Positions 11,021 through 37,530 of a DNA stretch of 64,000 nt are shown one piece after another; the first letter of the stretch is position 1, and every line of letters starts with the position of its first letter. The notes below the pieces were generated by a model. It worked only from the letters and a program-made list of their open reading frames with translations, was not told the DNA's origin and made no database searches. The translations under genes were made by a program, and so were the position numbers. Source of the stretch: Rhizophagus irregularis (taxonomy: Eukaryota > Glomeromycota > Glomeromycetes > Glomerales > Glomeraceae). The DNA is taken from the NCBI RefSeq assembly GCF_026210795.1, contig NC_089454.1, positions 186,001 to 250,000 of the forward strand, written 5' to 3'.

Positions 11021-13920
11021 TAATTTCCTGATGCAAGTTCAATACCACTTAGAAGTGATTGTAATGTTACTTGGGGTTCGTCAACTAGATTCTCTACAAA
11101 ATCAGTACTGGTAGTATTAGACTCCAAATCCTATATAATATATAACAAATGAAGTAAATATTAATATTTTCATATCAAACTTAAACACATGATTTGCGAA
11201 ATGATTTATTACCTCAATAAATGATGTTACCAATTGACCTTCATAAGTAAATGACTGAGAAATCTGAAACCTTTGCCATGACAATACAAGTGGTGTTAAG
11301 AAATGGATAAGAATTACGTCAATATTAGAAAAAAACTGGGATGATAAATGAGGAATCCCAACTGTTGTTTGACGTGCTTTAAGATCAATTAGTTGACAAT
11401 ATTTGGATTCACTTTCATGTCTTTTGTCAATAGCTTTTTCAACGTCACAGAGAGTGCTAGTGCTGTTTACTGCTTTCTTGATAATAGCATTAAAAGATTC
11501 AACGCTTTGAGTACTCTGTATTCCACCATTAAATTGGAATGGTAAATAAGATTTAACCCAACTAGAACGATTAGGATATAAAGCTTTTGTCATATAAGAT
11601 TGACATTCGACATTCTGGAAATAAATCTATCATTGATTTCCATTTTTGTTCAAATAATTCAATACTTAAAGCATTTCGACATGAATAAAATGCTTTACTA
11701 AAAGAAAGAAAATTTTCGCCTAATTTTGCTTTAAGATGTTTTATAATATTCTGCCATATATGAAAAAGACAGTGAAAATGAGATGTTACTGGGAAAACGT
11801 GAGATGCTGCATTGATTAGACCAGGTTCAGAATCAGTCCAAAATGATTTTGGAGCCAAATTATTACAGTCACCCCTCTCTACAGCGAACCTCGATATAGC
11901 GAATAACACGATATAACGGATCATACAGTGTGGTACCGATTTTAAATATGAAAAAAACCTTGATATAACAAAGTTTACTATTTATTTACCATATAACGTA
12001 GTATGAAGTAAAGTGTGTGAATTTCTTATATAAAAATGCCTCTCGATATAACGGATTTTTTTTATAACGAATTTTTTTTCAGTTATAACGAAGAATTTCT
12101 ATAGTTTATAATTAAATGTAATTATTAATAAATATTGATGCATTATGACATTAAATATCACCCCTGTGTTTTATATTTAAATTATGGATCAGGATTGTAT
12201 CAGGATCGTATCAGGATTAATAATTCTGGCTATTTTATTTAATATTTAGGCAGAATTACATTAATTTACATTAATTCAGTTGTATTAGGATTCGATGTGA
12301 ATTGTTATTAATTTATATTTATCACAGGGGGTAAGGACACTCCTAGTTAAATTAATATATCATTAATAATTTATTTATTATATAGTCAGTTATTGTTAAC
12401 CAGCATTCCTACAAAAAAAAGGAATTATAATAAACATTTTTATATAGAACACTTCAGGAAGCATTCCCTATAATAAAAAAATAAAAAAAGAATATTAGTA
12501 AATGTTCTTAAACGAAATTAATATAAAAAACCCCCAGTTCCCACTTACTTCTCATTCTAGGCATCTATTTTGAAGTTTAGAAAGCACCCCTATAAAAAAA
12601 AGATTAAAAAAAATGTTAAATTATCGGTAATCAGATCAACAAGTCACATGATCTGTATAACCGATATTCCTATACCGAAGAATTCGTTATAGTGTTAACG
12701 AAGTTGCTTATAACGAAGCCCTGATCAGCTGGAACCTAGGGTTCGTTATATCGAGAGGGGACTGTAGTTGCCTTTGTTAAGCATTGCAGGATCCACGTAT
12801 ATGTAGATGCCATCTCATCCTCTACAAGTGCATTTGCCATATTCCGGAACCTTCCATAATTATCCCCGACTATGAATACACTTAGATACATGTTGTATTT
12901 GTTAGTTTTGCATGTATTGTCATTCAATAATACATCATGAAAATGGTGATACAAGTCCTGCTGCTCAAATGACATCCAAAAAATGCCCGATAAACGACGT
13001 TCATTACCAGAGTGACGAATGAACACTTTCCAATTCGGATCCTCAGTCATTTTTTCAAAAAGACTATTAAGAAATGAACCAGAGTCCGGAGATTCATCTT
13101 TACAATTTTCACGTAGCTTATAGATTGAATTATAGACATCTTGCTTATGAAAAACATGATGTGGATGTTTTTTCTTAAGAATCTCTAATTGTATAATGGG
13201 CACAACCTTGCAATCTGTAAAAAATCTCAAATCCTGTACCATGTCATCATTGAATTGACGATATCTTGCATTAAGATGAGCAATCTCAGTGGGATTTAAT
13301 TCATGATTATGTACATCTACTAATGTTGTACATCTTATTTGTTGCTCTGTTTTTGGTAATTTGAAGTTGCAATGCCACTCACATCCTGTTTTGTTAGAGT
13401 CTCGCACACGATGTTCATTCTGATCAATTTTCTTACGTGCCTCATAATTACCACTCAGAGAACAACGAAATGATTTGCGACGGGTAATAGTATGATCATT
13501 TAAGTCTTTATCATTTTGATAAACCTGATAACCAAAGCCTCTTTCTAGGCAATATTTATGTATAAATCTATCAACAGATTCCCAGTCATCAAAACTATTT
13601 CCAATAGTGAGATTATACTGATAAGTAGAATAATCAGAAGTGCTTGTATCGTTAGATAAAGGTTCAGATAGTTTTATAGATTCTATTGCATTAGATAGAG
13701 GTTCTACAACGGAAAAATTATTGTTTGGAGGTATACTAGTATCTTCAACGGAAAAATAACTATTAGGAGGTATAGTAATATTCTCTAACTCAACGAAAAA
13801 ATAACTATTAGGAGGAGTAATATTCTCTAACTCACTACTATTACTTTCGGGAAAAGGTGTATAAAAGGTATCTTCGCTATCTTTGGGAAAATTTATGTAG
13901 GATATCCAGTCTAATTCCAT
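10987..13920 (-). pseudogene. MULE (Mutator-like, FAR1-type) transposase, interrupted
   Basis: The gene starts at 13920. After a low-complexity N terminus comes a FAR1-like zinc-binding domain (FRCSLSGNYEARKK, GCEWHCNFKLP, VDVHNHELN). The DDE-type core follows: first aspartate in LLNDNTCKTNKYN (about residue 334), second in SFWTDSEPGLINA (about 11840), glutamate in QSVESFNAIIKK (about 11500). A mariner-like element (11866-12764) splits the gene between the first and second aspartate; removing it with one TA joins the frames exactly. A second lesion is a 7-bp tandem duplication near 11600 that shifts the frame. A GT..AG intron lies at 11212-11131. The last exon runs into the palindromic array and stops at 10987, so no SWIM-type zinc finger is present. 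No flanking terminal repeats were identified. Confidence 0.85.
11866..12764. mobile_element. Tc1/mariner-type non-autonomous element, 899 bp
   Basis: The ends are CAGTCACCCCTCTCTACAGC at the left and, as reverse complement of the right, CAGTCCCCTCTCGATATAAC. TA dinucleotides flank both sides (11864-11865, 12765-12766). The interior has no transposase. Inside, about 12158-12330 is bounded by 'cacccctgtg' and 'cacagggggt' and may be a smaller nested insertion. Confidence 0.88.
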
Positions 13921-14034
13921 TATGGTAAAGAATTTGCAAGGATAAGCGATACTGCATTAATTATCACATCTTTATAAACGAAAATAATTTAGTGAGACAA
14001 ACATTTATTTGAAAGTGTTTGTATGACATACAAA

Positions 14035-16612: not shown

Positions 16613-17147
16613 AAATATCACCGTAGAAAATTGGCCCTTTACTAATAGTTTTTACCTTACTTTTTTCTTAAATTCTATTGGTTAATTGGCTAAAAAGGAA
16701 AAAAATCATAATAATGTAACATAAAATTTCCTTTTATAGTAGATCTGCAAAGAATTTTATATATGATTTTTACCTTAGGCCTGAGGGTAACACTGGTCGA
16801 ATAATGAAGAATCAGTGTATTAAGAGCCGGCTAGGAATCAGGACCAATCAGGTTTTTGGTTCTTATCTGGCCCTTATTTTTTTTTATCATTGAAAAATCA
16901 GTATCCTGATAGGTCTATGAATTTTACTTTATTAGAAATTGATAACTTTTAAACTAATCCATTTTTTAATCAGCAAAAAATAAACAATATCAGTTTTCTG
17001 ATTATTGATAAATAAAATTCTGATATATCATTAGTCTGTTAAAAGTATCAGTAAATCATCAAATGGTTGATAGTATAATATTTATTATCATAATTTATAA
17101 TTCATTAACATGTATAATTTATATAAACAATTAATTAATGGTATTTT
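16613..17147. other. Mixed repeat remnants without genes
   Basis: The block 'ttactaatagtttttacctt' at 16640-16665 is found reverse-complemented at 43395-43440. Part of it also resembles the 38.2-39.0 kb region. The remainder is AT-rich with no supported feature. Confidence 0.45.
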
Positions 17148-17360
17148 CACTGGTCAAAATCTATGCTATCGGGTATATATCAGGCACCTATATATCGGTG
17201 ACTAATCAGATATATATCGGGCATTTACATATATTGGGTATAACATCGGGTACCCAATATGGCAATATGTCACCGATATACACGCACTGGTATATTTCGG
17301 GTACCTATATAATCAGATATATATCGCCCAATATGTCACCGATATATTTCTAATATATAT

Positions 17361-17889
17361 GTATTACTTATCTCCTGGCTAATTAGGAATAAGTAAAATT
17401 TTACTAGGATTGGATAAATGATCGGCCGAAGGCCGATCATGTTCCGATTCTAAGTAAAATTTTACTATTCCAATTAGCCAGGAGATACCTTGATTTATCC
17501 CCTGCCATTTACACAATAGTAAGTGTTTTATAGTATATTGTGAGTATAATATAGTATATTTTATTGTTGAATTTACGCTTGGTTTTGTTTCATTTTAAAA
17601 ATTTTAAAATAAAAAAATAAATTTTAAAAAGTTTCGGAACCATTACTATTACACTTGAAAAATAGTATTGAGATTACAAATAAATTAAAAGAAAGTTTTT
17701 CTCATTTAGAAAATGCAAATCTTTCCGAATTACTCAAATTTTCGAATCAGTCCATTATAGTATAATCAATAATTAATTTTTACCGCAAAATTTCCTAGAA
17801 ACGGATAAATAAATACATATAAAATTGGCTACCAAGTAGGTATAACTACATTTGCATAAACGTGTAAATGGTGCCGATCAGGGGATAAT
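17361..17889. mobile_element. About 529-bp insertion present only in CACTA copy A
   Basis: Copy B has an uninterrupted 'ctaatatatatcgggtac' at this place, so it is a natural empty site. The insert contains a perfect-centred hairpin (17368-17489, ends TTATCTCCTGGC / GCCAGGAGATA, centre GATCGGCCGAAGGCCGATC). Next to it is a second inverted-repeat pair, 'ttatcccctgccatttacac' at about 17496 and its partner ending at 17888. Two nested or adjacent small elements are likely; the target duplication is unclear. Confidence 0.75.
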
Positions 17890-18059
17890 GGGTACTAATC
17901 ACAGGTCAAATGATTTGTCATATGACTTTCAGGTCAGAACATAACGGTAAGTGTTATATGAATATCGGGAGAATTTCAGCAATCCGATATTTCTCTTAAT
18001 CCTTACCGAACTATTTATGATATCAGGTGTATATTTGCTATGTCGAAACCTGATTTCTT

Positions 18060-18086
18060 TTTATTATTTATTCATTTATATGTACT

Positions 18087-18122
<36 letters not shown>
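18060..18122. repeat. (TTTA)n microsatellite
   Basis: About ten tandem TTTA units. The corresponding (AAAT)n tract in the inverted copy is at about 30750-30785. Confidence 0.9.
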
Positions 18123-18124
<2 letters not shown>

Positions 18125-18339
18125 ATATAATATATTTATTTCATTATTATATTTAAATTATTCATTAATTTATCCTATTCTATTTATTTACATTATGTTG
18201 TTAATGGTTTGGAACATTGTTCCAGTTGGTTCGATTCCAACAAACAACTTCTAAGTTCTAATATCAGATGTCACGTCTTAGTTAATATTGACATTACGAT
18301 CATGTCTGATCTACATTACGCGTTTTAATCCAAGAAACA

Positions 18340-19200
18340 TAAAAAAATAAAAAAAAAAGTGTTAGCTTTGTTTAATAATACCATTATTGCATTAACAAAA
18401 AAACCTACCATAATGTTTTATCCAAAAATCGTTCAAAGCATTGTCCAAGAACCTAAAAAATAGAAGAAATTATGTTAGTACTGCATCTTAACGTCATTAA
18501 CATTCACATACCAACCAAAAGAAACTTATTACTGGTACAGAAATCTGTGTTTTTTATCCACAAAAACCATTCAGAAACCTAACGAAAAAAAAAACAAATG
18601 GATTTAATATGCCATTAATATCACCACATAACTACTCAAAGAAACATACCGCAAGGAGACATCCAGAAACTATTTTAAAACCTAAAAACAAAAAAAAGGT
18701 GTTATTATAGTTTAATAGTACTACTGTATTAACACCCACCCAAAAGACTTACCATAAACAGTTATCAACGAATCGTCTAAAAATCAGAAAAAGAAAGAAG
18801 TAAAAGGTGTTAATATCGCTCCATATAATCACCAAAAGAAACTCATTGCAAATAATCGTCTGACTTAAAACCTAAAAAAAAATAAAAAAGGCATTATTAT
18901 ATAGTTTATTAATAACGCCATTAATACCCAACCAAAAGACCTACCGCGAAGGATTATTCAGGAACTATCAAGAATCCTAAAAATAAAAAATAGTGGCGTT
19001 AGTTATTATTTTTTATAACACCATTAGCAATACCACACTCAACTATATATATATATACACTCCATTACATGCCGTTTGTATAAGAGCTGTTTAAAAACTG
19101 CCTAAAAACCTAAAAAAGATAAAGAAATGGCATTAGTGGAATTCCTAACACCATTCACACCACAATGACCACATACTTCATTACCTTTAGCCTAGAAATC
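18340..19200 (-). repeat. Exon-like tandem units in CACTA copy A
   Basis: Read on the minus strand, each 110-170-bp unit has a T-rich tract ending TTTTTAG, about 50 nt of less biased sequence, then GGTAAGT- or GGTAGGT-like sequence and a hairpin-forming spacer. About seven units are present. The matching array in copy B is at 29640-30540 on the plus strand. Confidence 0.7.
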
Positions 19201-19419
19201 TCTGAAAGAACGTTCCTAATTAATTTCATTTCTAAAATAAAGGAAAAAATAAAAAAATATCTTATTATCGGCTCCGAGCGAATTCTGATCTGGAAATTAA
19301 ACTAAAAAAAAAATTATTTTTTTTATAACCTTTTTTTTAAAAAAATAGATTATCAGTTAATCGTTTAGCAAGTCATATGACTGTAGTCGCAGTTACTGAT
19401 TATGTATCCAAATGGTTTT

Positions 19420-21235
19420 TGAGAATTTTTTTAATTAAAAGGATCATTTAGGACATTTTTTGATAGAGAATTTTCTAATGATTCATTTGGAGAGATTATT
19501 TTTGAGAATTTTTTAACCAAAGAGATTTTTTGATAGAGAATTTTTTTGATAGAGAATTTTCTAAGAGTTTGTTTGGAAAAATTATTTTTTGAGAATTTTT
19601 TAACTGAAGGTATCATTTGATAGAGAAATTTCTAAGAGTTCGTTTAGGAAAATTATTTTTTGTATTTTTTAATTAAGGGGATCGCTTAGGGCATTTTTGA
19701 TAGAGAATTTTCTAATGATTCGTTTGGAGAGATTGTTTTTGAGAATTTTTTAACTAAAGGGAACGTTTGGAACATTTTTGATAGAGAATTTTCTAAGAAT
19801 TCATTTGGAAAATGGTTTTTTGAGAATTTTTTAACTAAAAGGATCATTTAGGCATTTTTTGATTGAGAATTTTCTAAGAGTTCGTTTAGGGAAATTATTT
19901 TTTGAATTTTTTAACCAAAGGGACCGTTGGAACATTTTTTGATAGAGAATTTTTTTGATAGAGAATTTTCTAAGAGTTTGTTTGGAAAAATTATTTTTTG
20001 AGAATTTTTTAACTGAAGGTATCATTTGATAAAGAAATTTCTAAGAGTTTGTTTAGGGAAATTATTTTTTGTATTTTTTAATTAAGGGGATCGCTTAGGG
20101 CATTTTTGATAGAGAATTTTCTAATGATTCGTTTGGAGAGATGGTTTTTGAGAATTTTTTAATTAAAGGGAATGTTTGGACATTTTTGATAGAGAATTTT
20201 CTAAGAATTTGTTTGGGAAATGGTTTTTTGAGAATTTTTTAACTAAAAGAATCATTTAGGGCATTTTTTGATTGAGAATTTTCTAAGAGTTCATTTAGGG
20301 AAATTATTTTTTGAATTTTTTAATTAAGGAGATCGTTTAGGGCATTTTTTGATAGAGAATTTTCTAATGATTCATTTGGAGAGATTATTTTTGAGAATTT
20401 TTTAACCAAAGAGATTTTTTGATAGAGAATTTTTTTGATAGAGAAATTTCTAAGAGTTCGTTTAGGGAAATTATTTTTTGTATTTTTTAATTAAGGGGAT
20501 CGCTTAGGGCATTTTTGATAGAGAATTTTCTAATGATTCGTTTGGAGAGATTGTTTTTGAGAATTTTTTAATTAAAGGGAACGTTTGGACATTTTTGATA
20601 GAGAATTTTCTAAGAATTTGTTTGGAAAATAGTTTTTCGAGAATTTTTTAACTAAAAGGATTATTTAGGGCATTTTTTGATTGAGAATTTTCTAAGAGTT
20701 CGTTTAGGGAAATTATTTTTTGAATTTTTTAATCAAGGGGATCGTTTAGGGCATTTTTTGATAGAGAATTTTCTAAGGATTCATTTGGGGAGATTATTTT
20801 TGAGAATTTTTTAACCAAGGGATCGTTTGAAACATTTTTGATAGAGAATTTTCTAAGAGTTCGTTTGAGGAGATTATTTTTAAGAATTTTTTAACCAAAG
20901 GGATCGTTTAGGACATTTTTTAACAGAAAATTTCTAGGAGTTCATTTGGGGAAATTATTTTTTGGGATTTTTTTTAACTAAAGGGATCATTTGGGACATT
21001 TTATTTTTAATAAAGAAATTTCTAAGAATTCATTTGGAAGATTTTTTGAGATTTTTTTAATAAATCTTCTAAGGGTTCATTTGGAGAGATTTTTTAAAAA
21101 AATTTTTTAACTAGAGGGGTCATTTCAAATATTTTTTTGATGAGAAATTTTCTAAGGGTTCATTTGGAAAGATTTTTTTTTTTGATAATTTTTTAATCGA
21201 AGGGGTCGTTTGGATTGAGAAATTTTTGTTTTACG
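19420..21235. repeat. About 80-bp tandem array, long version
   Basis: The unit includes 'gatagagaattttctaagag', 'ttcgtttagggaaattattt' and 'aaggggatcgtttagggcat'. Roughly 20 units are present here against about 12 in the inverted copy (28450-29455). The short frames at 19431-19616 and 19831-20025 repeat with the unit and are not genes. Confidence 0.85.
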
Positions 21236-22359
21236 ACGTAATTTTACCAAATTTAATTATAAATGTATTCAGGCTATAAAATAACATGTGGTAAGTTACG
21301 TAATATTGTTATCATGTGATCACATAATTTAAATATTTACATTTCGCATTTTTGTTTATCTTATTAAAACCTTTTCTTCGTTCTCAATTTTTTTTTTACT
21401 TAAAAAACAATTTTTTATCTATTTAATATATCCAGAAATACATATTTTTATATTTTTTTTATTTGTTATATCTAGAAATGCATAAAAAGGTATATATTAC
21501 TAATATTTCTTTTCTTTATTAATGTTTTTCTACCAATTTTTTTCGTTTCTTTCTTTCCTTTTACTAATACTCCTACTAATATATTTTCTATTATTTTTTT
21601 CTACTATATTAACATTTCTACTATTTAATATTTTCTATTAATATTATATTACTACTGATATACGTTCTCTTTCTACTAACATTTTTTATTCTATTAACTT
21701 TTTCTTTCTGCTAATGTTTCTACTAATATTTTCTATATTTATATATCTATACTAATATTTTTTAATAACATTCTCTTTTCTCTTACTAATATATTTATCA
21801 TTAATGCTTCTTTTAAATAATCAAACAGGTATAAGCAAACAAGTGATTTTATTTTTATGCTACTTTTAGTAGAAGTTATATATTATATATATTTATTCAA
21901 ATATTCAAGTATAATTAGTATAATTGTTTTTTTTAATTAAAAAGTGTAAATAAATTTAAATTGTAATAAAGTTTTGAATTAAAATTAAAAAAAAAATATA
22001 AATTATGATTGCATTTTATAATTTTTTTGCCTGAATTAAATTATAAATCTACTAGTATTAATACGAAATCATTATCCTATATCTATCCGTCTAATATCTG
22101 TATGATATCTGTATGATATCTATATGATATATATCATAATATATCGGGTACCCAATAAGTCTATGATATGTGACCGATATTTAACTACCCGATATGTGTA
22201 AGATGTATATGTGATATTTACATGATGTGTCACCGTTTTTCTGCATTTCTACTACACATATCAGATACCTGATATGTGTAGCATTGTTAAATATCATACA
22301 CATATATCACATATATTGTACACATATCAGATACCCGATAGTATTAATTTTGACCAGTG

Positions 22360-22765
22360 ATCGAATAAATGTCACTCCTGTTATACCACGCCTTTGTTAT
22401 TCTTCCTAACTACGAAACAAAGTTACCAATCACCTTTGGTTATTATAAAAACTAACAGTTACTGTTGAATCATAAAAATAAATTTAATTCTCCAAATAAA
22501 AATACACAAATTTGAAATTGTCATTTTGCTAGTTAAATTTAACAATTGGTATCATGGTATCACGTATATTTTTTGTAAAAATTTTACTATCTACGATATT
22601 TAGCAAAAAACCCACATTCATAAAGACTATCCTAAAAACTTACCACCCTTTCACTACCCAATAACACTAAGCCTTCTGATTGTTCATTGCCCTTATCTTT
22701 TTTGGTCCTCCCTAGCTTTTTCATTTCCACTCTTTTCGTCTTATCTTCTTTCGCAAGACGTTCCT
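22360..22765 (-). pseudogene. Two 3'-terminal coding exons cut by the CACTA element/inversion
   Basis: On the minus strand an exon (about 22765-22644) reads a lysine-rich segment (KKLGRTKKDKGNEQSEGL) and ends at GTG|GTAAGT. After a 234-nt intron ending TAG, exon 22409-22360 reads LGRITKAWYNRSDIYS and runs straight into the CACTA end. Its continuation in frame is found beyond the other copy at 31189-31256 (ICINVEGYIDFGCKF), after collapsing the GAT duplicate. The upstream exon borders the inverted-repeat element at 22768-23964, so these exons may be the 3' part of the hAT transposase gene or a neighbour. Function is not recognised. Confidence 0.6.
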
Positions 22766-22767
22766 CC

Positions 22768-23964
22768 TAAAGCTCTGAACAGTTTGGGCTAAACCGGGGA
22801 ACTGATCCGAAACTGGCCCAAAATTCGGTTCAGTCCGGTTCAGGTATTAGAACCGAAAAACTGGCGGTTCAGTTCGGTTTAATCTGATTTTTATAAAAAT
22901 GCAAAAAATCAAATAGCCGTCCATCTAGTGATCATACAAAGTTGAGCCATATATCATTGGATTCATCTCGACGAGACGTGTCAAATGGCAGTAAGATCAT
23001 GTCTCTAGCATCAATAGATCGTAAGTTAATTCACACTAAATGATTTATAAAAAATTGGCATTAGCAGGCTATCTATCGATGCTAGAGACTTGATCTTACC
23101 ACCATTCGACTCGTCTCATTAAGACGAATCCAATGAGTCCTAATTTATATTTGTACGACCATTGGACGACGAATAAATTCATGTATCGGAATTTTTAATT
23201 TTTAACGCTTGAAAATTTTAAAAAAATGCGAAACTTGATATTATTCGCCATCCAGTGGTCGTACACGAACGAATTTATATTCATTGGATTCGTCTCACTG
23301 AGACGCGTCGAATGGTGCTAAGATCATGTCTCTAGCACTGATAGATAGCTTGCTAATTCCAATTATTTATAAATCATTTAGCATGAATTAACGTACGATC
23401 TATTGACGCTAGAGACATGATCTCACCACCATTCGACTCGTCTCATTGAGACGAATCCAATGAGTCCTAATGCATATTTGTATGACCATTGGACGACGAA
23501 TAAATTCATGTATCGGAATTTTTAATTTTTAACGCTCGAAAATTTTAAAAAATGCGAAACTTGATATTATTCGCCATCCAGTGGTTGTACACGAACAAAT
23601 TTATATTCATTGGATTCGTCTCACTGAGACGCGTCAAATGGTGCTAAGATCATGTCTCTAACACCGATAGATAACATGCTAATTCCAATTATTTATAAAT
23701 CATTTAGCGTGGGTTAACGTGTGATCTATCGATGCTAGAGACATGATCTTACCGCCATTCGACGCGTCTTGTCGAGACGAATCCAATGATATATAGCTCG
23801 AATTTATACGATCACTAGATAGCCGGCTATTCAATTTTTCGCATTTTTATAAAAATCGGATTAAACTGAACTGAACCGCTGGTTTTTCGGTTCGGTTCTT
23901 ACGGATTTCAGCTCTAATCCGAACTGTCTATAATCCAGACCAAACTGACCTGTTCAGAGCTTTA
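22768..23964. mobile_element. hAT-type non-autonomous element, TAAAGCTCTGAAC family, copy 2
   Basis: A 1197-bp element with the same ends and internal modules as 14608-15802. The flanking octamers (gttcctcc and gttgtatc) do not match, unlike copy 1, so it may be a product of recombination or of flank decay. It follows directly on the 3' end of the recognisable hAT coding sequence. Confidence 0.88.
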
Positions 23965-26474
23965 GTTGTATCTGCTCAATATTTTCAATAGAAATATCAT
24001 ATGTATCAGTAATGCTTGCTAATTTATTATGTTGGTCCTGTAATTCATTTTCAATCATTTCTATCCAATCTATTACTGTTTTTCTCCATTCGTTAGCAGA
24101 TGCTAATGGTTGTGTATAAATATTATTTATACTTTCATTATCATATTCATTTGTTTTACTATCAGTATCAGAATCTTCATTATCAGATAGAATGAAAATT
24201 TCATCATCATTTTCTAATCTTGCAAATTCTATATTATCTGAAGTTCTTGTTATAGTTATTTGATATTGTTTTGCATGATAATCTAACTCGTAAAGCTGTT
24301 GTTGTCTTTGCATACTTGCACGAATCTGGGCTAAACTTAACACTTTTTCCGCCTAAAATACCAAAAAAAAACATTGCAAAAAACTTTGTAGTTAAATTAT
24401 ATAAATAAATATGCTAATATGTTGTACCTTTAATCGATTTCTCCGTTTTGAGTGATACCATCCTATTGTTGAAAACAATCGTTCTAATGAAGCTGTTGAT
24501 AGTTGATACAGTAATTGAAAAAATTCGTTGAGCAACCCTATACAATTCTTTTGAGTAACCTTTTGTAAAATTCCAATAATCTAAAATATTGTTTTTAAAT
24601 TGCTTAAAAATAGAATCAGTATAAGGATATTTTTTTGATCTATATTCTTCAAGTTCAGCTAGTAAAACTGTTAGTTCCTCCTTAAACCATGTACAATAAT
24701 AATATAAAACCCATTTTACTAGGTGAGAAAATGATAAATTTAATGCAGGATTAAATTTTGTATCATGATAAAATGAATGTAGCAAAAATGATAATAACAA
24801 GAGAGGCTGTTCCCAATCTTTCCATCATCGCTCAATTTTTGAAAGAAGAGTAGTGGCTAATTCTTGATCTTCAAATGTTTTAAGTGTCATAACTACATTA
24901 CCAAATCCGTGAAGAACTTCGTGCAATCGTGAATTTTATCGTTGAAGTTTATTAAGTGTTGCACAATATGAAATTAAAAAGGTTTCAATTTTTTTAATAG
25001 AAATCCACCAATTATTATCTAAAATGCATTGTAAATGTTTTTTGGGAAAATCATAGCCATCAGAAATAATTTTTTCATCTATTTTCGTTGCAAGATTAAA
25101 AAAAAAAAATTGTTTAATTAAAAAGTAAAAACAAAGATCAACCCAAAATTTTTATTGCATAATACATACATGTAAAGCCCCCTTTTGTTTTTAATAAACT
25201 AGCAAAACAGTAATAGTATGAGTTCCATCGAGTAGTAGCTGGGGTTACTAATGCAATATGAACTTTGTAAATAGCTGCTTGCTCATTTTAAAGTCGTCTA
25301 AAACTATACTTTTGACCGACTGAAAAAAGTAATTAAACTAATAGTCCCTTCAGCAGCATTACTCAGACTTGATGACTCTTTAAATATATCTCCAATACAC
25401 AAATTCATCTGGTGCACAAAGCACGGCAAAAATATCTTGTCCTGGTATTGGAAGTGCAATCGTTTTCTAAATCAATAAAATTAATAAATAATTTTAAATA
25501 ATTTTATAAACCTAAAATTAAAAATAATTATTATTGATTACCTTGCAGCAACATTTTCTGAAGTAGAGTCTGTAATTAATCCATTAATTTTAATATTCTT
25601 TTTTTCAAGCTCATCAAATGATTTTTTCGTTTCATCTATTATAATATCACTAGTACATCTTTTTCCACTGATATCCTCAACTTTCCATATAATCATATTG
25701 CATTCTGAAGTAAATAAAACGGCCCTAATAAATTTTGACGAGAAATATTTTTCCAACCATCAAAAGCTAGCATAATCCCAAGATCATCATTAATAGCATC
25801 ATTAAAAACAATATCTTTAAGGTTATTGGATGCTTTTTTAAGAATTCTGCCGCTAAGCTGCTTACGATCTGGTAACTCTAACATTGGATTAAGCCATTTA
25901 AAGAGCTCTTTAACTGCTGGATTATCAACCCAACGAAAAGCAAAATCACAAGCTACAGTAACATCTAATAGTAACTGTTCAAATGTTTCTATTTGTTCTG
26001 GCTTTAATTCATGATACATATAGTTATCAGGGGACCAAAGCTTCGAAATGAAATATCTGATATGCTACTTATGCTGTTTGCACGTGATGATTTATAAAAA
26101 AAATTGTTCAAATTAGAAGAACCTTGGGAAGGTGTTGATGTGTTTGATAGCGGTGTTAATACTTCAGTTTTACCCTTATCAAAGTCATTATCTATTGATA
26201 ATCATTATCGTTTAATTGGTTTTTTTGAACCATACTCTATAGTTTTCTGAATTATAGCTTGAGTCTCTTCTGAAGAGTGTCTTTCAGCCCAATAAGGACA
26301 ATTTTCGAGATGCTTTGCACATGCACGTTTTGTATTTGTAAACCTCTGTTTCATCGCTTCCTCTCAATCCAAACTTCTAACACATTCTTAACAAACTGCA
26401 TAATTATTATATTTATTGAACTTTTCTTCTAACATTAAAAAATATCCACTAAGTTTATGTTTTTCGCGCATCAT
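23965..26474 (-). pseudogene. hAT transposase with BED-type zinc finger, heavily decayed
   Basis: The likely start is at 26474 (MMREKHKLSGYFLML). A BED-like finger follows (C..C at about 26400 with a TAA between the cysteines, then ACAKHLENCPYW). The segment 26019-25693 carries the hAT core with LAFDGWKNISRQNLLG (first acidic residue); a frame change near 25745 leads into 25756-25538 with LITDSTSENVAA (second aspartate). Segment 24800-24414 holds the C-terminal dimerisation region (ELYRVAQRIFSITVST). The exon 24343-23965 is acidic and coiled. A T-rich intron separates 24414 from 24343. Multiple stops and frame changes exclude activity. The gene lies inside the segment inferred to have been inverted. 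Confidence 0.8.
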
Positions 26475-26543
26475 TTTTAATATCGCAATTAAAAAAAAAG
26501 ATTATCGGAAATTCAGGTTTGACGATTTATCAATTATCATTAT

Positions 26544-26755
26544 GTGTTACGAAAATTTAATTGGATGATGAATTGGACCAAGTCCAATTGTACGTCCAAT
26601 TGCCTAATTGGACGAATTGGTTATAGTCCAAATCCAACAGATGTATATTGGACCAATTGGACAATTGGACGCAATTGGTCTATATCCAATTGTCCAATTG
26701 TCCAAATTGTCCAATTAAATCAATTGGAATGAATCCAATACCAACACTGAAAATC
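26544..26755. repeat. CCAATTGG-rich inverted repeats
   Basis: Many overlapping copies of 'ccaattg' and 'caattgg' make a dense palindromic block. Its right edge ends CCAACACTG, which resembles the hAT-type terminus at 46120. The left partner is not clear. The open frame 26544-26732 is a by-product. Confidence 0.6.
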
Positions 26756-26756
26756 A

Positions 26757-27209
26757 CGCTTTAGCATTTGTTAGATGGTATCGTCCAGTAAATGATCATA
26801 ATACTAAATTTCACTGTAGAATTAACGATGAAGTTGAATCTTGTAATATTGAATTATGGAAAAAAAATTTTTTTGAATATAGCTAAGGTTGCTTGTTTAA
26901 ACCTCTTTAAAATCCTATAATTAGTTTCGTCAAAATTTTACTATAGATTTATTATAGTTTTGGCAGAGTTTCGGCAGTTTCGGCATTTATAATAAGTTTC
27001 AGCAGTTTCGCCATTCTCCAAAGTTTCGCCAGTTTTTTAATATAACTTTAATATAGTTTCAGCAGAATTTCGCTTTTTGGCGAAACGCCATCTTCTTTTA
27101 AACCCTAGGTTTCGGCAAGTAACCTTAAATATAACAGAGATTGTATTATTCCAATACATAGTATATTAGATCGATTTGTTGAAGGCTCTTTTACAATAGG
27201 TAAAAAAAT
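26757..27209 (+). pseudogene. Remnant exon of an unidentified transposon-type gene, split by a MITE
   Basis: From 26757 the plus strand reads AFVRWYRPVNDHNTKFHC (after HAL) and continues through ESCNIELWKKNFFEY to the element at 26884. After removing the element and one 8-bp duplicate it continues in frame with RDCIIPIHSILDRFVEGSFT, then meets a possible donor GTAAAA at about 27210. The in-frame join makes the coding interpretation convincing, but I do not recognise the family. The 5' side is cut by the CCAATTGG repeat block. Confidence 0.6.
26884..27127. mobile_element. hAT-type MITE, TAAGGTTGC family, copy 2
   Basis: A 244-bp element with TAAGGTTGCTTG..CAAGTAACCTTA ends. The flanking octamers are AATATAGC and AATATAAC (one mismatch). 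The interior is nearly the same as in the copies at 5639 and 42899. Confidence 0.92.
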
Positions 27210-28449
27210 ATATATCAATAATACCAATTAATAGAAAAATACATATTTAAAATTAATTTCAATTATATATATATTTATAAATAATAAATAAATTCAGCAG
27301 TAGATCATTAAATAAGTAAACACTGGTCAAAATTAATACTATCGGGTACCTATCGGTACCTGATATGTGTACAATATATGTGATATATGTGTATGATATT
27401 TAACAATGCTACACATATCAGGTATCCGATATGTGTAGTAGAAATGCAGAAAAACGGTGACACATCATGTAAATATCAGCATATACATCTTACACATATC
27501 GGGTAGTTAAATATCGGTCACATATCATAGACTTATTGGGTACCCGATATATTATGATATATATCATATAGATATCATACAGATATCATACAGATATCAG
27601 ACGGATAGATATAGGATAATGATTTCGTATTAATACTAGTAGATTTATAATTTAATTCAGGCAAAAAAATTATAAAATGCAATCATAATTTATATTTTTT
27701 TTTAATTTTAATTCAAAACTTTATTACAATTTAAATTTATTTACACTTTTTAATTAAAAAAAACAATTATACTAATTATACTTGAATATTTGAATAAATA
27801 TATATAATATATAACTTCTACTAAAAGTAGCATAAAAATAAAATCACTTGTTTGCTTATACCTGTTTGATTATTTAAAAGAAGCATTAATGATAAATATA
27901 TTAGTAAGAGAAAAGAGAATGTTATTAAAAAATATTAGTATAGATATATAAATATAGAAAATATTAGTAGAAACATTAGCAGAAAGAAAAAGTTAATAGA
28001 ATAAAAAATGTTAGTAGAAAGAGAACGTATATCAGTAGTAATATAATATTAATAGAAAATATTAAATAGTAGAAATGTTAATATAGTAGAAAAAAATAAT
28101 AGAAAATATATTAGTAGGAGTATTAGTAAAAGGAAAGAAAGAAACGAAAAAAATTGGTAGAAAAACATTAATAAAGAAAAGAAATATTAGTAATATATAC
28201 CTTTTTATGCATTTCTAGATATAACAAATAAAAAAAAAATATAAAAATATGTATTTCTGGATATATTAAATAGATAAAAAATTGTTTTTTAAGTAAAAAA
28301 AAATTGAGAACGAAGAAAAGGTTTTAATAAGATAAACAAAAATGCGAAATGTAAATATTTAAATTATGTGATCACATGATAACAATATTACGTAACTTAC
28401 CACATGTTATTTTATAGCCTGAATACATTTATAATTAAATTTGGTAAAA

Positions 28450-29455
28450 TTACGTCGTAAAACAAAAATTTCTCAATCCAAACGACCCCTTCGATTAAAA
28501 AATTATCAAAAAAAAAATCTTTCCAAATGAACCCTTAGAAAATTTCTCATCAAAAAAATATTTGAAATGACCCCTCTAGTTAAAAAATTTTTTAAAAAAT
28601 CTCTCCAAATGAACCCTTAGAAGATTTATTAAAAAAATCTCAAAAAATCTTCCAAATGAATTCTTAGAAATTTCTTTATTAAAAATAAAATGTCCCAAAT
28701 GATCCCTTTAGTTAAAAAAAATCCCAAAAAATAATTTCCCCAAATGAACTCCTAGAAATTTTCTGTTAAAAAATGTCCTAAACGATCCCTTTGGTTAAAA
28801 AATTCTTAAAAATAATCTCCTCAGACGAACTCTTAGAAAATTCTCTATCAAAAATGTTTCAAACGATCCCTTGGTTAAAAAATTCTCAAAAATAATCTCC
28901 CCAAATGAATCCTTAGAAAATTCTCTATCAAAAAATGCCCTAAACGATCCCCTTGATTAAAAAATTCAAAAAATAATTTCCCTAAACGAACTCTTAGAAA
29001 ATTCTCAATCAAAAAATGCCCTAAATAATCCTTTTAGTTAAAAAATTCTCGAAAAACTATTTTCCAAACAAATTCTTAGAAAATTCTCTATCAAAAATGT
29101 CCAAACGTTCCCTTTAATTAAAAAATTCTCAAAAACAATCTCTCCAAACGAATCATTAGAAAATTCTTTATCAAAAATGCCCTAAAGCGATCCCCTTAAT
29201 TAAAAAATACAAAAAATAATTTTCCTAAACGAACTCTTAGAAATTTCTCTATCAAATGATACCTTCAGTTAAAAAATTCTCAAAAAATAATTTTTCCAAA
29301 CAAACTCTTAGAAAATTCTCTATCAAAAAAATTCTCTATCAAAAAATCTCTTTGGTTAAAAAATTCTCAAAAATAATCTCTCCAAATGAATCATTAGAAA
29401 ATTCTCTATCAAAAAATGCCCTAAATGATCCTTTTAATTAAAAAAATTCTCGAAA
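28450..29455. repeat. About 80-bp tandem array, short version
   Basis: Reverse complement of the 19420-21235 array with about 12 units. The frame 29256-29441 mirrors 19431-19616 and is not a gene. Confidence 0.85.
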
Positions 29456-29639
29456 AACCATTTGGATACATAATCAGTAACTGCGACTACAGTCATATGA
29501 CTTGCTAAACGATTAACTGATAATCTATTTTTTTAAAAAAAGGTTATAAAAAAAATAATTTTTTTTTTTAGTTTAATTTCCAGATCAGAATTCGCTCGGA
29601 GCCGATAATAAGATATTTTTTTATTTTTTCCTTTATTTT

Positions 29640-30540
29640 AGAAATGAAATTAATTAGGAACGTTCTTTCAAAGATTTCTAGGCTAAAGGTAATGAAGTAT
29701 GTGGTCATTGTGGTGTGAATGGTGTTAGGAATTCCACTAATGCCATTTCTTTATCTTTTTTAGGTTTTTAGGCAGTTTTTAAACAACTCTTAGACAAACG
29801 GCATGTAATGGAGTGTATATATATATATAGTTGAGTGTTGTATTACTAATGGTGTTATAAAATATAATAACTAACGCCACTATTTTTTATTTTTAGGATT
29901 CTTGATAGTTTCTGAATAATCCTTCGCGGTAGGTCTTTTCCTTGGGTATTAATGGCGTTATTAATAAACTATATAATAATGCCTTTTTTATTTTTTTTTA
30001 GGTTTTAAGTCAGACGATTATTTGCAATGAGTTTCTTTTGGTGATTATATGGAGCGATATTAACACATTTTACTTCTTTCTTTTTCTGATTTTTAGACGA
30101 TTCGTTGATAACTGTTTATGGTAAGTCTTTTGGGTGGGTGTTAATACAGTAGTACTATTAAACTATAATAACACCTTTTTTTTGTTTTTAGGTTTTAAAA
30201 TAGTTTCTGGATGTCTCCTTGCGGTATGTTTCTTTGAGTAGTTATGTGGTGATATTAATGGCATATTAAATCCATTTGTTTTTTTTTTCGTTAGGTTTCT
30301 GAATGGTTTTTGTGGATAAAAAACACAGATTTCTGTACCGGTAATAAGTTTCTTTTGGTTGGTATGTGAATGTTAATGACGTTAGGATTCAGTACTAACA
30401 TAATTTCTTCTATTTTTTAGGTTCTTGGACAATGCTTTAAACGATTTTTGGATAAAACATTATGGTAGGTTCTTTTGTTAATGCAATAATGGTATTATTA
30501 AACAAAGCTAACACTTTTTTTTTTATTTTTTTATGTTTCT
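29640..30540 (+). repeat. Exon-like tandem units in CACTA copy B
   Basis: Seven units carry 'tttttag' followed by 'gtttctgaatggtttttgtg'-like sequence and a GGTAGGT/GGTAAGT-like site, then a spacer able to fold, for example around 'acagtagtactattaaacta'. Spacing is 110-170 bp. Confidence 0.7.
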
Positions 30541-30748
30541 TGGATTAAAACGCGTAATGTAGATCAGACATGATCGTAATGTCAAGATCAACTAAGACGT
30601 GACATCTGATATTAGAACTTAGAAGTTGTTTGTTGGAATCGAACCAACTGGAACAATGTTCCAAACCATTAACAACATAATATAAATAGATAGAATAGGA
30701 TAAATTAATGAATAATTTAAATATAATAATGAAATAAATATATTATAT

Positions 30749-30786
<38 letters not shown>

Positions 30787-31188
30787 AGTACATATAAATG
30801 AATAAATAATAAAAAGAAATCAGGTTTCGACATAGCAAATATACACCTGATATCATAAATAGTTCGGTAAGGATTAAGAGAAATATCAGATTGCTGAAAT
30901 TCTCCTGATATTCATATAACACTTACCGTTATGTTCTGACCTAAAAGTCATATGACAAATCATTTGACCTGTAATTAGTACCCGATATATATTAGAAATA
31001 TATCAGTGACATATTGGGCGATATATATCTGATTATATAGGTGCCCAAAATATACCAGTGTATATCGGTGACATATTGGGTACCCGATGTTATACCCGAT
31101 ATATGTAAATGCCCAATATATATCTGATTAGTCACCGATATATAGGTGCCCGATATATACCCGATAGCATAGATTTTGACCAGTGGAT

Positions 31189-33250
31189 ATGCATAAATGT
31201 AGAAGGTTATATTGATTTTGGGTGTAAGTTTGCTAATAAAAATTCAAAACAAAAATAAAAATATTCTGGGAAAAAAATGGTTAAATATACCATTTAATAT
31301 CATATGTTACACTTAATGTGACAGGAGTATACTAAATAAATATTAGTATATTTTCTTTTAAACTTCCTTTCCCAATTCTCTTTCTCTTCATTCCCTTTTC
31401 CCATTTTTCATTCCTTTTCTCTCCCATTCTTTCGCTATTCCCCTCTCCTTTGTCCTTTCATACTTTATTTTTAAAAAAAAAGTTGAAAAGCACACGTAAA
31501 AAAATACAAAATTTCTTTTTTTTAGGCGGTTATTTCAGTTCCCTCCTGGACGGTAAGCTTTAATTTTTTTTTCTTCAATTATTTTTATTTCAGTGAAATT
31601 ATTTCATTTCTAATGGCTTATTTCTTATTTTTTTAGACGGTTTTGTCCTTTGTATATTTGGACGTGTGGAAATTCAGTAGGAAAAGGGAAAGGGAGAGAG
31701 AGTGTGAATATTCTTCCATATTATTATATTTTGACAAAACATTTATTAACCTTCAATTTTTTCTTTTTTTTTCAAACAGAATTGGGTTTCATTTAACACG
31801 CGAGTTTTCAGTTTTTCTTTTTTAGAGACTCTTCAAATTTTTGGCAGTAAGACTTATTTTTTATTTACTAATTTTTTTATTTTTAAATGATCTTTATTAA
31901 CAGCTCATTTCTTTTTAGGAATGGGGACGGTTCCATCAGTTCAGTTCCGTTTCTGCTGAGCGGTTTAACCGGTTTTGAATTGGTTCGCTCAAAAAACGAT
32001 TCTGAGTGGTTCAGTTTTGGTTCGGTTCTGTGGAACAGTTCTAGTTAGTTCGAATCTGATGAACAGCTATGATAATTCTGGCCAGAATCAAACTATCTGC
32101 ACGAAAATTTCCTTTTTTGAATTTCATGTAACCCAATTTATAAGGAATTGAATTTCCTTTTTTGGATTGTATAACATCACGTGATCAGTTTAACTGAACT
32201 GAACCGCAGTTCAATTTAAACTGGTTCTCAGTTCTGGTTTAGTTCTTAGTTCTAAACCAGGTTCGAACCGCTCAACCGGCAAACTTTCCCATCTCTATTT
32301 CTTTTTCTTTTTTAGGCAGATCTTTCAGGTTTCTAGAGTTTGGATGTTATTAGATGGTTTGGATCTTTAAGTACTTGAATGTATGGGAATTTGGTAGTAG
32401 AGGCCATTTTTTATTATTCTTTAATGAAACATTTATTAATGTTTCGTCTTCTTTTTCTTTTTAGATAGCTTCTTCTTCAGGACCTTTAAAACATGCGAAT
32501 TATGGTATTTAATTTTGATTCTTAAACTTCTTTATTATAACAAAATATCAACCTAACAATTTTGTTTTTTATTCTTTTTTAGGCGAGTTTTTGGCTCTTT
32601 GGATATGACATTTTGGTAATATTTTGTATAAAAATTATTACGTAATACGCGACATATTATCTTAAGGTATATCTCTTTTTGTATACTCTATTATAATTGC
32701 TAAAAATAATCGATTTACATAAAACAAAAACTTATAAATATCCATTACATTCCCACTTATCCATTATTTATTTTAACAAAACGTTTATTAACATTTTGTC
32801 TTATTTTTTTTTTTTTAATCAGCTTCTTTGAAACTTCTTTGACGCGGATTCGTAAGTTTTTTTCTTCAATTTATTTTATCTTTTTTAGACAGCTTGCTCT
32901 TCGGATTTGGATAGCATGCATTATTTGAATGAAATCATTTCATTATAATCTGCGACTAAAAAAGATGAAAATCAAGATAGGATAATAGAAAACGCATTAG
33001 ATTAGGTGAGCTATTTTTTCGCTATTATTTGTTTTAATGAAATGAATGAAATGTATTCTAACATTTCGTTATTTCTTTTTTTAAATGGGCCTGAACATGT
33101 GAGATTTTGGTAATTGTTTTTCTTTAAAAAATTTTTTTAACAAAACGTTTGCTAACGTTTTTGTTTCTCTTTTTTCCTTTTTTTAGGTACCAGTTCTCTG
33201 GTTCTCTATCAGTAATTTTAATAAATATATGGATAATAATAAATGTAATA
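31189..33250 (+). repeat. Degenerate exon-like array (left part)
   Basis: The first 68 bases (31189-31256) are the displaced coding end described at 22360-22765. From about 31500 a series of blocks follows the scheme T-tract plus TTTTTTAG, about 50-60 nt, then GGTAAG-like or ATTTTGGTAA, with spacers such as 'aaaacgtttattaacatttt'. Examples of the AG site are at about 31527, 31637, 32316, 32465 and 32583. The same series resumes at 42160-42540 beyond the CACTA insertion. It could be a decayed many-exon gene, but no continuous reading frame links the blocks. Confidence 0.5.
31916..32297. mobile_element. hAT-type MITE with TAG(A/G)(G/A)ATGGG ends
   Basis: A 382-bp element with left end TAGGAATGGGGACGGTT and right end, reverse complemented, TAGAGATGGGAAAGTTTGCC. 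It is flanked by the 8-bp repeat TTTCTTTT (31908-31915, 32298-32305). The low complexity of the duplication lowers certainty, but the ends fit hAT termini. The interior is rich in GGTTC/GAACC words. Confidence 0.8.
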
Positions 33251-35234: not shown

Positions 35235-37530
35235 TTATTCCTCATTATCATCATAATTATCGTCATTATTATCACCGTCATCCATACCTAATACATCATC
35301 TATATCATAATCATAGTCACCTTCTCCGGGTCTCTTGTTATTACCACTATCATCAACTTCATCATCTTCCGCATTATTTTCATCTGAATCATCCAATATA
35401 TCTCTTGAAATATCGCCGATTTCACTAGTAATTGAATCATGTGATAAATTAACAAATTGATCAATCCATAGACTTTCGATTACTACACGGCAATTGTCTT
35501 CGGGTATTGTTTCGCCGCTTGTAGTTAATCTCTGAGTAGTAACTTGCTCCTCATTATATTTTTTATCGTCATCTTCTGCAAAAGCTTCTGCAATACGTAT
35601 ATTGATCTCATCATCACTAAGACGAGTATTCTTTTTTTGATCAATTTCATAAAATCCAAGTTCAGTTTTTGAATTGGATTTCCAATACAAAATTAATTTG
35701 CACATGGATTTTAGTTTATCCACATTAAGATTTAAGCGACGTTTATGAAATAGCCATCCTAAAGTCGAAAATCCACATTCGCAAGTTGCTGAGTTAGGAC
35801 ATATTGCAAATAGATAACTTGCAATTCTTGGCAGGGCATCTGGTTTTGGTTCGGTATTAATATATTTCCACCAATTCACGGGATTATCTTTAGCAAAACT
35901 GATATCTCAGTGTCAAACTCTTGCTCATTAATATATTTCTGTATTTGATCACATAAAGTTTCAGCTTCGTAACGGTCAAAACCTAAATTTTTCCCGATTG
36001 AAGCTGCACATTTGATAATTCTCATGAGGGCGCATTTTTTAAGTGGCGCGTTTCTAAATCTGGGATCCATAAAAAAACAAGTAATATACTTATCATCATC
36101 GAACTCATCAAATCTTTCATTTATTACTTTGATACAATGACTTCGGAATGCAGGATTTAATGATTTGGGTAACTTTTTTAATATAGCTGCAAGTCTTGCC
36201 AAGCTCAGGAAACAATCTGCAAGTGTAGCTCTTCTCGATTCTAATGAAAGTACCGCTTTTCTTAGAGGATCCAGAACAAATCCAAGAACTCGTAAATTTG
36301 AAAAAAATTTCTCGATTGAATAATCAGTTTTATTTTATCATTTATTAGCACTTTATCATGATCGCTGGCCATTTCTTCTAGTGCTGATTCCAAATTTATC
36401 ACTGAATTTACAGATTCACTAGCAGTAGTCCAGCGTGTCTTGCAATATAATTTTAATCCTCCTCCACTAATTCCTTTTTCTTTAATTATTTGAGCAAGTT
36501 TTGCATTAGCCTGATGAGAACTTCTAAAAAAGGTTGTCAAAATATTAACACGTTTTAATAAATGTTCCCCAAACTTCTTCTTGACGATGTCGCATGCAAT
36601 TAAATTGATAGAATGTGCAACGCATCGCACATTCTCAATCTTTGGATGATTCTTATGTATAATTTTTCGTGCATTACGAACATTGGCTGCATTATCAGAA
36701 ACTACAGCACATATTCGATATTCTCCAATACCTTCTATAACCTTTTCAATTACCGTAACTAGATATTCTGCAGTATGTGAATTTTCAGACAAATCAGAAA
36801 GTTGATAAAGATATTCTTTACGCGACGAAGTCATTACAATGAAGTTCCAAATTGAACGATGTGTACCAGATGTCCAACCATCAAAGGCTAAATTATAAAT
36901 TAATATTATATAGTAAGTAAAATTAAATAAAAATGACGTATGATAGCCTATTTAATTTAACTAACCTAACGTTAAATTCATTTCCTTTTCAAGCTCAGAA
37001 TTAACTTTGAAGTTCACTTGAGCTAATTCACGTTCAAGTAGTTGATTTACTAATACTTCCCTTGTTGGTGTATTGTACCCGGCATTAAGCTCTTTTATAA
37101 AATTGATGAAAAAGGGATGTTCCACTACTCTAAACGCAATTCTGCACGCAATAAAAAATTTAACTAATGCACGATTAATTCGTGTACATCTTTGTTCGTT
37201 AAGCTCTGTTGAATCATGGTAATCATCCATGTTACTCTTGACCTTCAGAGTATTTTCTTTTTTGGATGACTTGGACTTATCTTGCCGTTCCATTACTTTA
37301 GTCATATACCTTCTAACAACTGCTGCTGGCGCATCTGGACAATGGTTTGAAAGATGCTCTTCGAGCTTTAAAACTTTACCGCGTGACCATGTATTCTTAC
37401 AGTACTTGCAGGAGGCAAATTTGCCAGAACCAACAGCTTCTCCTTTATTAATATCTTCCCAAATGCTATTAGGTGACCGACTTCCTCTATTTTTCTTTTT
37501 AATGGGTGAATCTTCTATGTGATCAGTCAT
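35235..37530 (-). pseudogene. BED-type hAT transposase, near complete with two frameshifts
   Basis: The gene starts at 37530 (MTDHIEDSPIKKKNRG). A BED zinc finger occupies about residues 41-64 (C41-x2-C44..H59-x4-C64). Exon 1 ends at 36966; the intron 36965-36888 is GT..AG and joins NLTL to AFDGWTSGTHRSIWNF. The RNase H-like core shows FDGWTS, AVVSDNAANV, RCVAHSINLIACD and CKTRWTTASESVN. The C-terminal dimerisation domain reads NSATCECGFSTLGWLFHKRR, followed by a long acidic tail. Two lesions exist: a run of seven A (36301-36307, eight would restore frame) and a one-base shift near 35905 between DTEIS and FAKDNPVNWWKY. Either these are real mutations or the homopolymer one is a sequencing error. 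As the product would act on the TAAGGTTGC ends, this element family probably mobilised the MITEs in this window. Confidence 0.9.

Follow-up and report, generated by a model that had tools for sequence, protein, structure and literature searches.

Swapped target-site duplications point to inversion of a 5-kb segment between two opposed CACTA transposon copies in Rhizophagus irregularis

Inversions bounded by transposons that carry swapped target-site duplications are already known, and the locus described here is a further example. The closest described case is the Galileo inversion 2z3 of Drosophila buzzatii, in which opposed copies of a DNA transposon lie at the breakpoints with exchanged duplications, the uninverted DNA has a single copy of the target, and secondary insertions are found inside the copies (PMC2775673). 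Such an exchange of duplications is compatible with ectopic recombination as well as with hybrid element insertion, but the copies are expected to be chimeric under the former and identical under the latter (Delprat et al. 2009, PMC2775673). In maize, copies left by homologous exchange are described as having duplications that are usually non-identical, whereas in reversed-ends transposition a new duplication pair arises and the inter-element fragment is lost (PMC8225341). Here we analyse a window of 64,000 nucleotides (C26:186001-250000) from Rhizophagus irregularis, in which two opposed copies of a CACTA-family transposon, A and B, flank a segment of about 5 kb that is almost certainly inverted. 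All coordinates are window positions, and all searches were made in one genome of strain DAOM197198 (146,748,485 bases, 32 contigs).

Our locus resembles Galileo 2z3 in each of the features listed above. It differs from it in that Galileo belongs to the P superfamily, makes 7-bp duplications and has breakpoint copies that are chimeric with respect to other copies (PMC2775673), whereas A and B are CACTA elements with 3-bp duplications, the segment is of about 5 kb, and the uninverted state is known from paralogous repeats only. The alternative-transposition inversions of Ac/Ds in maize also have copies of a cut-and-paste transposon at both breakpoints but, unlike A and B, show one new duplication pair and have lost the inter-element fragment (PMC8225341). 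The word 'inversion' occurs neither in the main text of PMC11075540 nor in PMC10234402, both on R. irregularis, and among the titles and abstract openings listed from the openly accessible literature we found no report of a transposon-bounded inversion in an arbuscular mycorrhizal fungus. The present inversion is small, and a single genome suffices to recover the ancestral state at each of its ends, with paralogous repeats standing in for empty sites. Arbuscular mycorrhizal fungi have repeat-rich genomes, and to our knowledge the origin of their rearrangements has been little resolved at the base level.

Copy A occupies 17148..22359 on the forward strand (5212 bp), starting with CACTGGTCAAAATCTATGC and ending with GTATTAATTTTGACCAGTG; copy B, of the same family and in opposed orientation, occupies 27321..31185 on the reverse strand (3865 bp). 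The sequence CACTGGTCAAAAT is found at each end of both copies in inverted orientation, giving termini of the CACTA/CACTG type. Copy A is flanked by TTT on its outer side (17145..17147) and by ATC on its inner side (22360..22362, GAT on the other strand), and copy B by AAA on its inner side (27318..27320, TTT on the other strand) and by GAT on its outer side (31186..31188), all given on the forward strand. Hence neither copy has a matching pair of its own, but the flanks match crosswise: the outer flank of A and the inner flank of B are the halves of one TTT duplication, and the inner flank of A and the outer flank of B those of one GAT duplication. Copy ends, orientation and swapped flanks had been reported in a first-pass annotation of this DNA and are all borne out. 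The probability that both pairs match crosswise by chance is ~7e-4 to 9e-4 from base composition (7e-4 being the squared sum of squared trimer probabilities, 0.026, and 9e-4 the product of the probabilities of TTT and GAT) and ~1.2e-3 from the trimer frequencies of the window. The segment between the copies (22360..27320, 4961 bp) would accordingly read on the reverse strand with respect to the ancestral order.

The rationale of the following analysis is that both insertion sites can be rebuilt in the uninverted order and searched for in the genome. To rebuild the TTT site, the sequence on the left of A was followed by the reverse-complemented sequence on the left of B, and one TTT was kept. 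A relative on another contig (L085, C11:3591686-3592090) spans this join in a 406-bp alignment at 90%, is gap-free there and has a single TTT; the join is also crossed, more loosely, by L090 (83% over 88 bp) and L089 (67%). Altogether 4 of 32 rows from outside the window cross it, namely the C11 relative and three weak AT-rich matches of ~70% (C13:1577100, C13:913759 and C7:1574726), which we did not count as support. The left part of the host sequence (16791..17147, forward strand) is the terminus of a different CACTA-like repeat that starts with CACTGGTCGAATAATG, and its right part (27132..27320, reverse strand, with the inward limit set by the L089 alignment) now lies within the inversion. 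Among the matches listed, and as judged by eye, at least 14 of the 17 rows covering query positions ~314-439 of the rebuilt TTT site lie within ~3 kb of Transposase_21, so that one CACTA element, copy A, appears to be nested inside another. This confirmation at the TTT site is new with respect to the first reading of the locus.

The GAT site was rebuilt in the same manner from the two right-hand flanks, that of A being reverse-complemented and placed before that of B, again with one GAT kept. The search returned 21 rows, two of which are the window's own halves, while the other 19 correspond to 17 places. The rebuilt join is crossed on each side by at least 10 nt in 12 of these places, by at least 12 nt in 11 and by at least 30 nt in 9; two places (C25:1290082-1290364 and C17:685583-685865) have the two flanks in the right order but lack ~73 bp adjacent to it, and three do not reach 10 nt across it. 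In the alignment, five relatives (L002 and L004 to L007) are continuous through the join without a duplicated GAT, showing a single GAT (AAT in L002) at the place that matches 22360..22362. The left half of the host repeat (22360..22673, reverse strand, outer limit approximate) is now within the inversion, and similarity to it starts at emp 887-900 in L006, L008 and L010 and at emp 795 in L005. The right half (31189..31916, forward strand) remains outside, with L008 and L010 colinear to emp 1928 and L002 and L004 to L007 alignable across the join to emp ~1242. The ~73-bp gap of L008 and L010 (on C17 and C25) begins exactly where B inserted, which may be a coincidence or mark a shared weak point.

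As a control, the two joins of the present order were searched for in the same way. None of 23 and none of 27 rows from outside the window cross them by at least 12 nt; one row among the 23 (C17:685552) reaches 11 nt. The rebuilt joins are thus uninterrupted elsewhere in the genome and the present-order joins are not, which shows that the sequences now parted by A and B were neighbours in the other order. The inversion proposed in the first-pass annotation therefore holds at both breakpoints, the ancestral order being seen in paralogous repeats of one genome that serve as a proxy for empty sites, and we regard the inversion of ~5 kb between A and B as very nearly certain.

It had further been claimed that the inversion split a coding exon. 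Re-inversion of the segment and collapse of the GAT duplicate indeed produce a single open frame, LGRITKAWYNRSDIYSICINVEGYIDFGCKFANKNSKQK, which has 39 codons from the L shown up to the stop, and its translation is common to relatives (10 matches, the window's two halves included). However, L006 has lost 4 bp and L007 has gained 4 bp, so that the frame is shifted in two of the five relatives aligned across the join. Moreover, the DNA upstream of the frame is also similar, at 70-88% over the ~190 bp before the core (46% in part in L009) and at 40-84% farther out. This is an interspersed repeat whose core of ~92 bp is better conserved, with 82-92% identity where present, and ends near GTAAGT; L008 to L010 are devoid of most of the core on the right-hand side of the join. 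Since the frame is shifted, the similarity extends beyond it and the sequence is a repeat, a split coding exon is not established, and we rejected it as unproven. A 75-amino-acid open reading frame nearby (31336-31563) had no Pfam match at E 0.001, and the core may or may not be transcribed. The GAT-site repeat nevertheless works as DNA evidence for the ancestral order.

How the inversion came about is less firmly told. We consider that a homologous crossover, rather than a single aberrant transposition, probably made it. According to this model, a TTT target in the terminal part of another CACTA-like element would have received copy A, and a GAT target ~5 kb away, within an interspersed repeat, copy B in opposed orientation. 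Intrachromosomal ectopic recombination (non-allelic homologous recombination) between the two would then have inverted the intervening DNA, with exchange points inside the copies, and as a consequence both target duplications would now be divided between the copies, with one half on each. Ectopic exchange commonly uses opposed repeats that are long, nearly identical and a few kilobases apart.

To weigh this, A and B were compared with three other copies (L047, L048 and L049), and the set was enlarged to as many as seven copies for the left part and ten for the right; alignment columns beyond 1640 on the left and the first 40 on the right were left out of divergence counts and trees. In the left part (1574 sites) A has 8 private substitutions and B has 16, and in the right part (1123 sites) A has 3 and B has none. 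These private changes are explained 8 times better by a swap, in which A-left belongs with B-right and B-left with A-right, than by its absence. In the right parts they are also fewer than expected (P 0.022, using the ratio of three other copies). Likewise, the non-CpG differences of A and B number 20/1533 on the left and only 2/1091 on the right (p 0.0016), and no such drop is seen between L047 and L048 (8/1495 versus 6/1103). The uneven private changes and divergence give weak support to an exchange between A and B. No exchange point can be placed, and an apparent cluster of variants near the tandem array in which A equals L048 and B equals L047 and L049 was dropped as a conversion switch, being an indel in A/T runs. 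Private changes in total amount to 11 for A and 16 for B over ~2700 sites, so that, on the scale of the family, A and B separated recently and any inversion made in one step is recent as well.

The strongest competitor is hybrid element insertion, which we hold to be possible but distinctly less likely than the crossover. Here transposase would, after replication, join a right end from one sister copy with a left end from the other and insert them ~5 kb away at the GAT (or TTT) target, so that one event would account for the swapped duplications and the inversion as well as for the second copy. In that case the CACTA elements of R. irregularis would actively cut and flip segments by the action of transposase on sister-chromatid ends, and not act as mere passive homology, a proposal that we put forward only tentatively. 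Several observations speak for this explanation or against the crossover. Hybrid element insertion gives the same flank outcome (PMC2775673), and A and B are sister copies lying ~5 kb apart, with bootstrap values of 94 and 92 for the left part, 87 and 85 for the right part and 99 for both joined. No third copy is closer to either, so that a chimeric state of A or B is not demonstrated. The 8:1 ratio depends on three right-hand changes, all on A. Furthermore, the left-right step falls below p 0.05 in 6 of 10 pairs: besides A-B, in five pairs involving B or L049 (B-L049, 0.0008; B-L047, 0.005; A-L049, 0.03; B-L048, 0.03; L047-L049, 0.04), leaving above it only A-L047, A-L048, L047-L048 and L048-L049. 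As several pairs show the step, the right part may simply evolve more slowly, or the left part of B faster. Finally, one member of the family, described below, has 3-bp flanks that match and contains a tnp2 transposase domain. On the other hand, hybrid element insertion predicts even divergence, whereas the right parts of A and B are almost identical and their left parts differ; it would need later gene conversion or uneven rates, and the rates may indeed be uneven. For these reasons the claim of a base-level trace of ectopic recombination stands as to the inversion and not as to its mechanism, hybrid element insertion leaving the same flanks and A and B being sisters.

The sisterhood itself has some exceptions. 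A and B share 4 + 2 private substitutions and one 3-bp insertion, but some sites conflict with the grouping, placing B with L047 or L049, or A with L055. By raw counts the left part of A differs by 19 substitutions from L048, 21 from L047 and 29 from B, a nearness to L048 that arises because the branch of B is long, and over the first 253 bases of A four other copies rank above B. The statement that A and B are mutually closest in every comparison, which we considered, is hence true of the trees and not of all raw comparisons. Among the best 40 candidates scored in the genome, B's left part finds its closest counterpart in A, and A's right part in B by one bit, as hybrid element insertion would have it. 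Sisterhood could come from a single event, from local transposition and a later crossover, or from homogenisation between inverted repeats.

Three other explanations fared worse. An assembly error, in which the segment between near-identical opposed repeats was set in the wrong orientation, would mimic swapped flanks, and the similarity of A and B is high. Published statistics for the assembly (GCA_026210795.1), however, give a Nanopore read N50 of 24,957 bp at 77-85x (PMC10234402), and with copies of 5.2 and 3.9 kb, of which A has an additional array block of 818 bp and an insert of 529 bp, single reads should span both and tell them apart, which makes misassembly unlikely as the source of the flanks. 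When two copies lying on one chromatid undergo reversed-ends transposition, as is known for Ac/fAc in maize, inversions flanked by two DNA transposon copies can result (PMC8225341), but this process duplicates one new target and loses the inter-element fragment, whereas here both pairs match and both joins rebuild without loss; we deem it very improbable. Least credible of all is that unrelated copies with decayed duplications happen to match crosswise, for although the flanks are only 3 bp long and TTT makes up 7% of trimers in this AT-rich DNA, the low chance calculated above and the two independent rebuilt joins, found in the C11 relative and in the relatives of the GAT site, contradict it.

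A 27-bp terminal pattern of the family to which A and B belong, with at most 2 mismatches, occurs at 63 + 67 = 130 places in the genome, and the same pattern read backwards, as a control, at none. Pairing of ends drew on 97 of the 100 places listed among these 130, with three internal terminus repeats excluded (among the ends set aside was an inner left end at C28:3181483), and gave 23 pairs, which together with copies on C2, C29 and C12 make 26 copies besides A and B. Identical 3-bp flanks were found in 25 of the 26, the tally being 10 of 11 copies in a first set, 12 of 12 small pairs, and C6, C29 and C12; L058, whose right end is L099, has TCA/TCA. The sole mismatch is L053 (C18:1946776-1951919), with TGT/TGA, which may reflect a point mutation or a further rearrangement. 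The test used here, swapped 3-bp flanks together with rebuilt joins, could be extended to all copies of the family in order to count transposon-bounded inversions.

The copy on C12 (C12:3581901-3595821; L095, L097 and L098) is 13.9 kb long and has the family termini, the right one bearing substitutions, GTT/GTT flanks and an open reading frame matching Transposase_21 (tnp2, PF02992; E 4.9e-13), which makes it a candidate autonomous relative of A and B. Termini, 3-bp flanks and this transposase frame in one copy identify the family as CACTA, a label that we take to fit elements with such termini and 3-bp duplications. No stop-to-stop frame of at least 110 amino acids lies inside A or B, and both copies are therefore non-autonomous. 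Elements of the CMC-EnSpm and Plavaka types have been reported from R. irregularis (PMC11075540). The Plavaka transposase (PF18759) has 123 matches in the genome, but comparing coordinates by eye we found none within A, B or the 26 paired copies, and the Plavaka branch of CMC was consequently rejected both as a placement of the family and as its source of transposase. Two further copies, L054 and L055 (on C13 and C5), are ~97% like B over their left 1.5 kb and only ~67% alike in the right part, a contrast suggesting that ends may have been swapped between subfamilies.

A and B differ by two large blocks. Copy A has a 529-bp insert (17361..17889) that is absent from B, L047, L048 and L049; a palindromic TA-flanked piece within it (17369-17487) looks like a small inverted-repeat element. 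Both copies contain a tandem array of ~81-bp units with a higher-order period of 409 bp, at 19416..21200 on the forward strand in A and at 28490..29460 on the reverse strand in B (limits approximate), A carrying two additional 409-bp blocks, that is, 818 bp more than B. The arrays of L047, L048 and L049 are longer and have their units in a different order from those of A and B. A reciprocal unequal crossover within the array (from 2+2 to 3+1) would be compatible with the sizes but was set aside as evidence, because the arrays differ among all five copies decomposed.

The inverted segment contains a hAT C-terminal dimerisation domain (24414-24824), and the window also holds a FAR1/MULE transposase open reading frame at 12736-13956 and a DUF659 open reading frame at 36262-36951.

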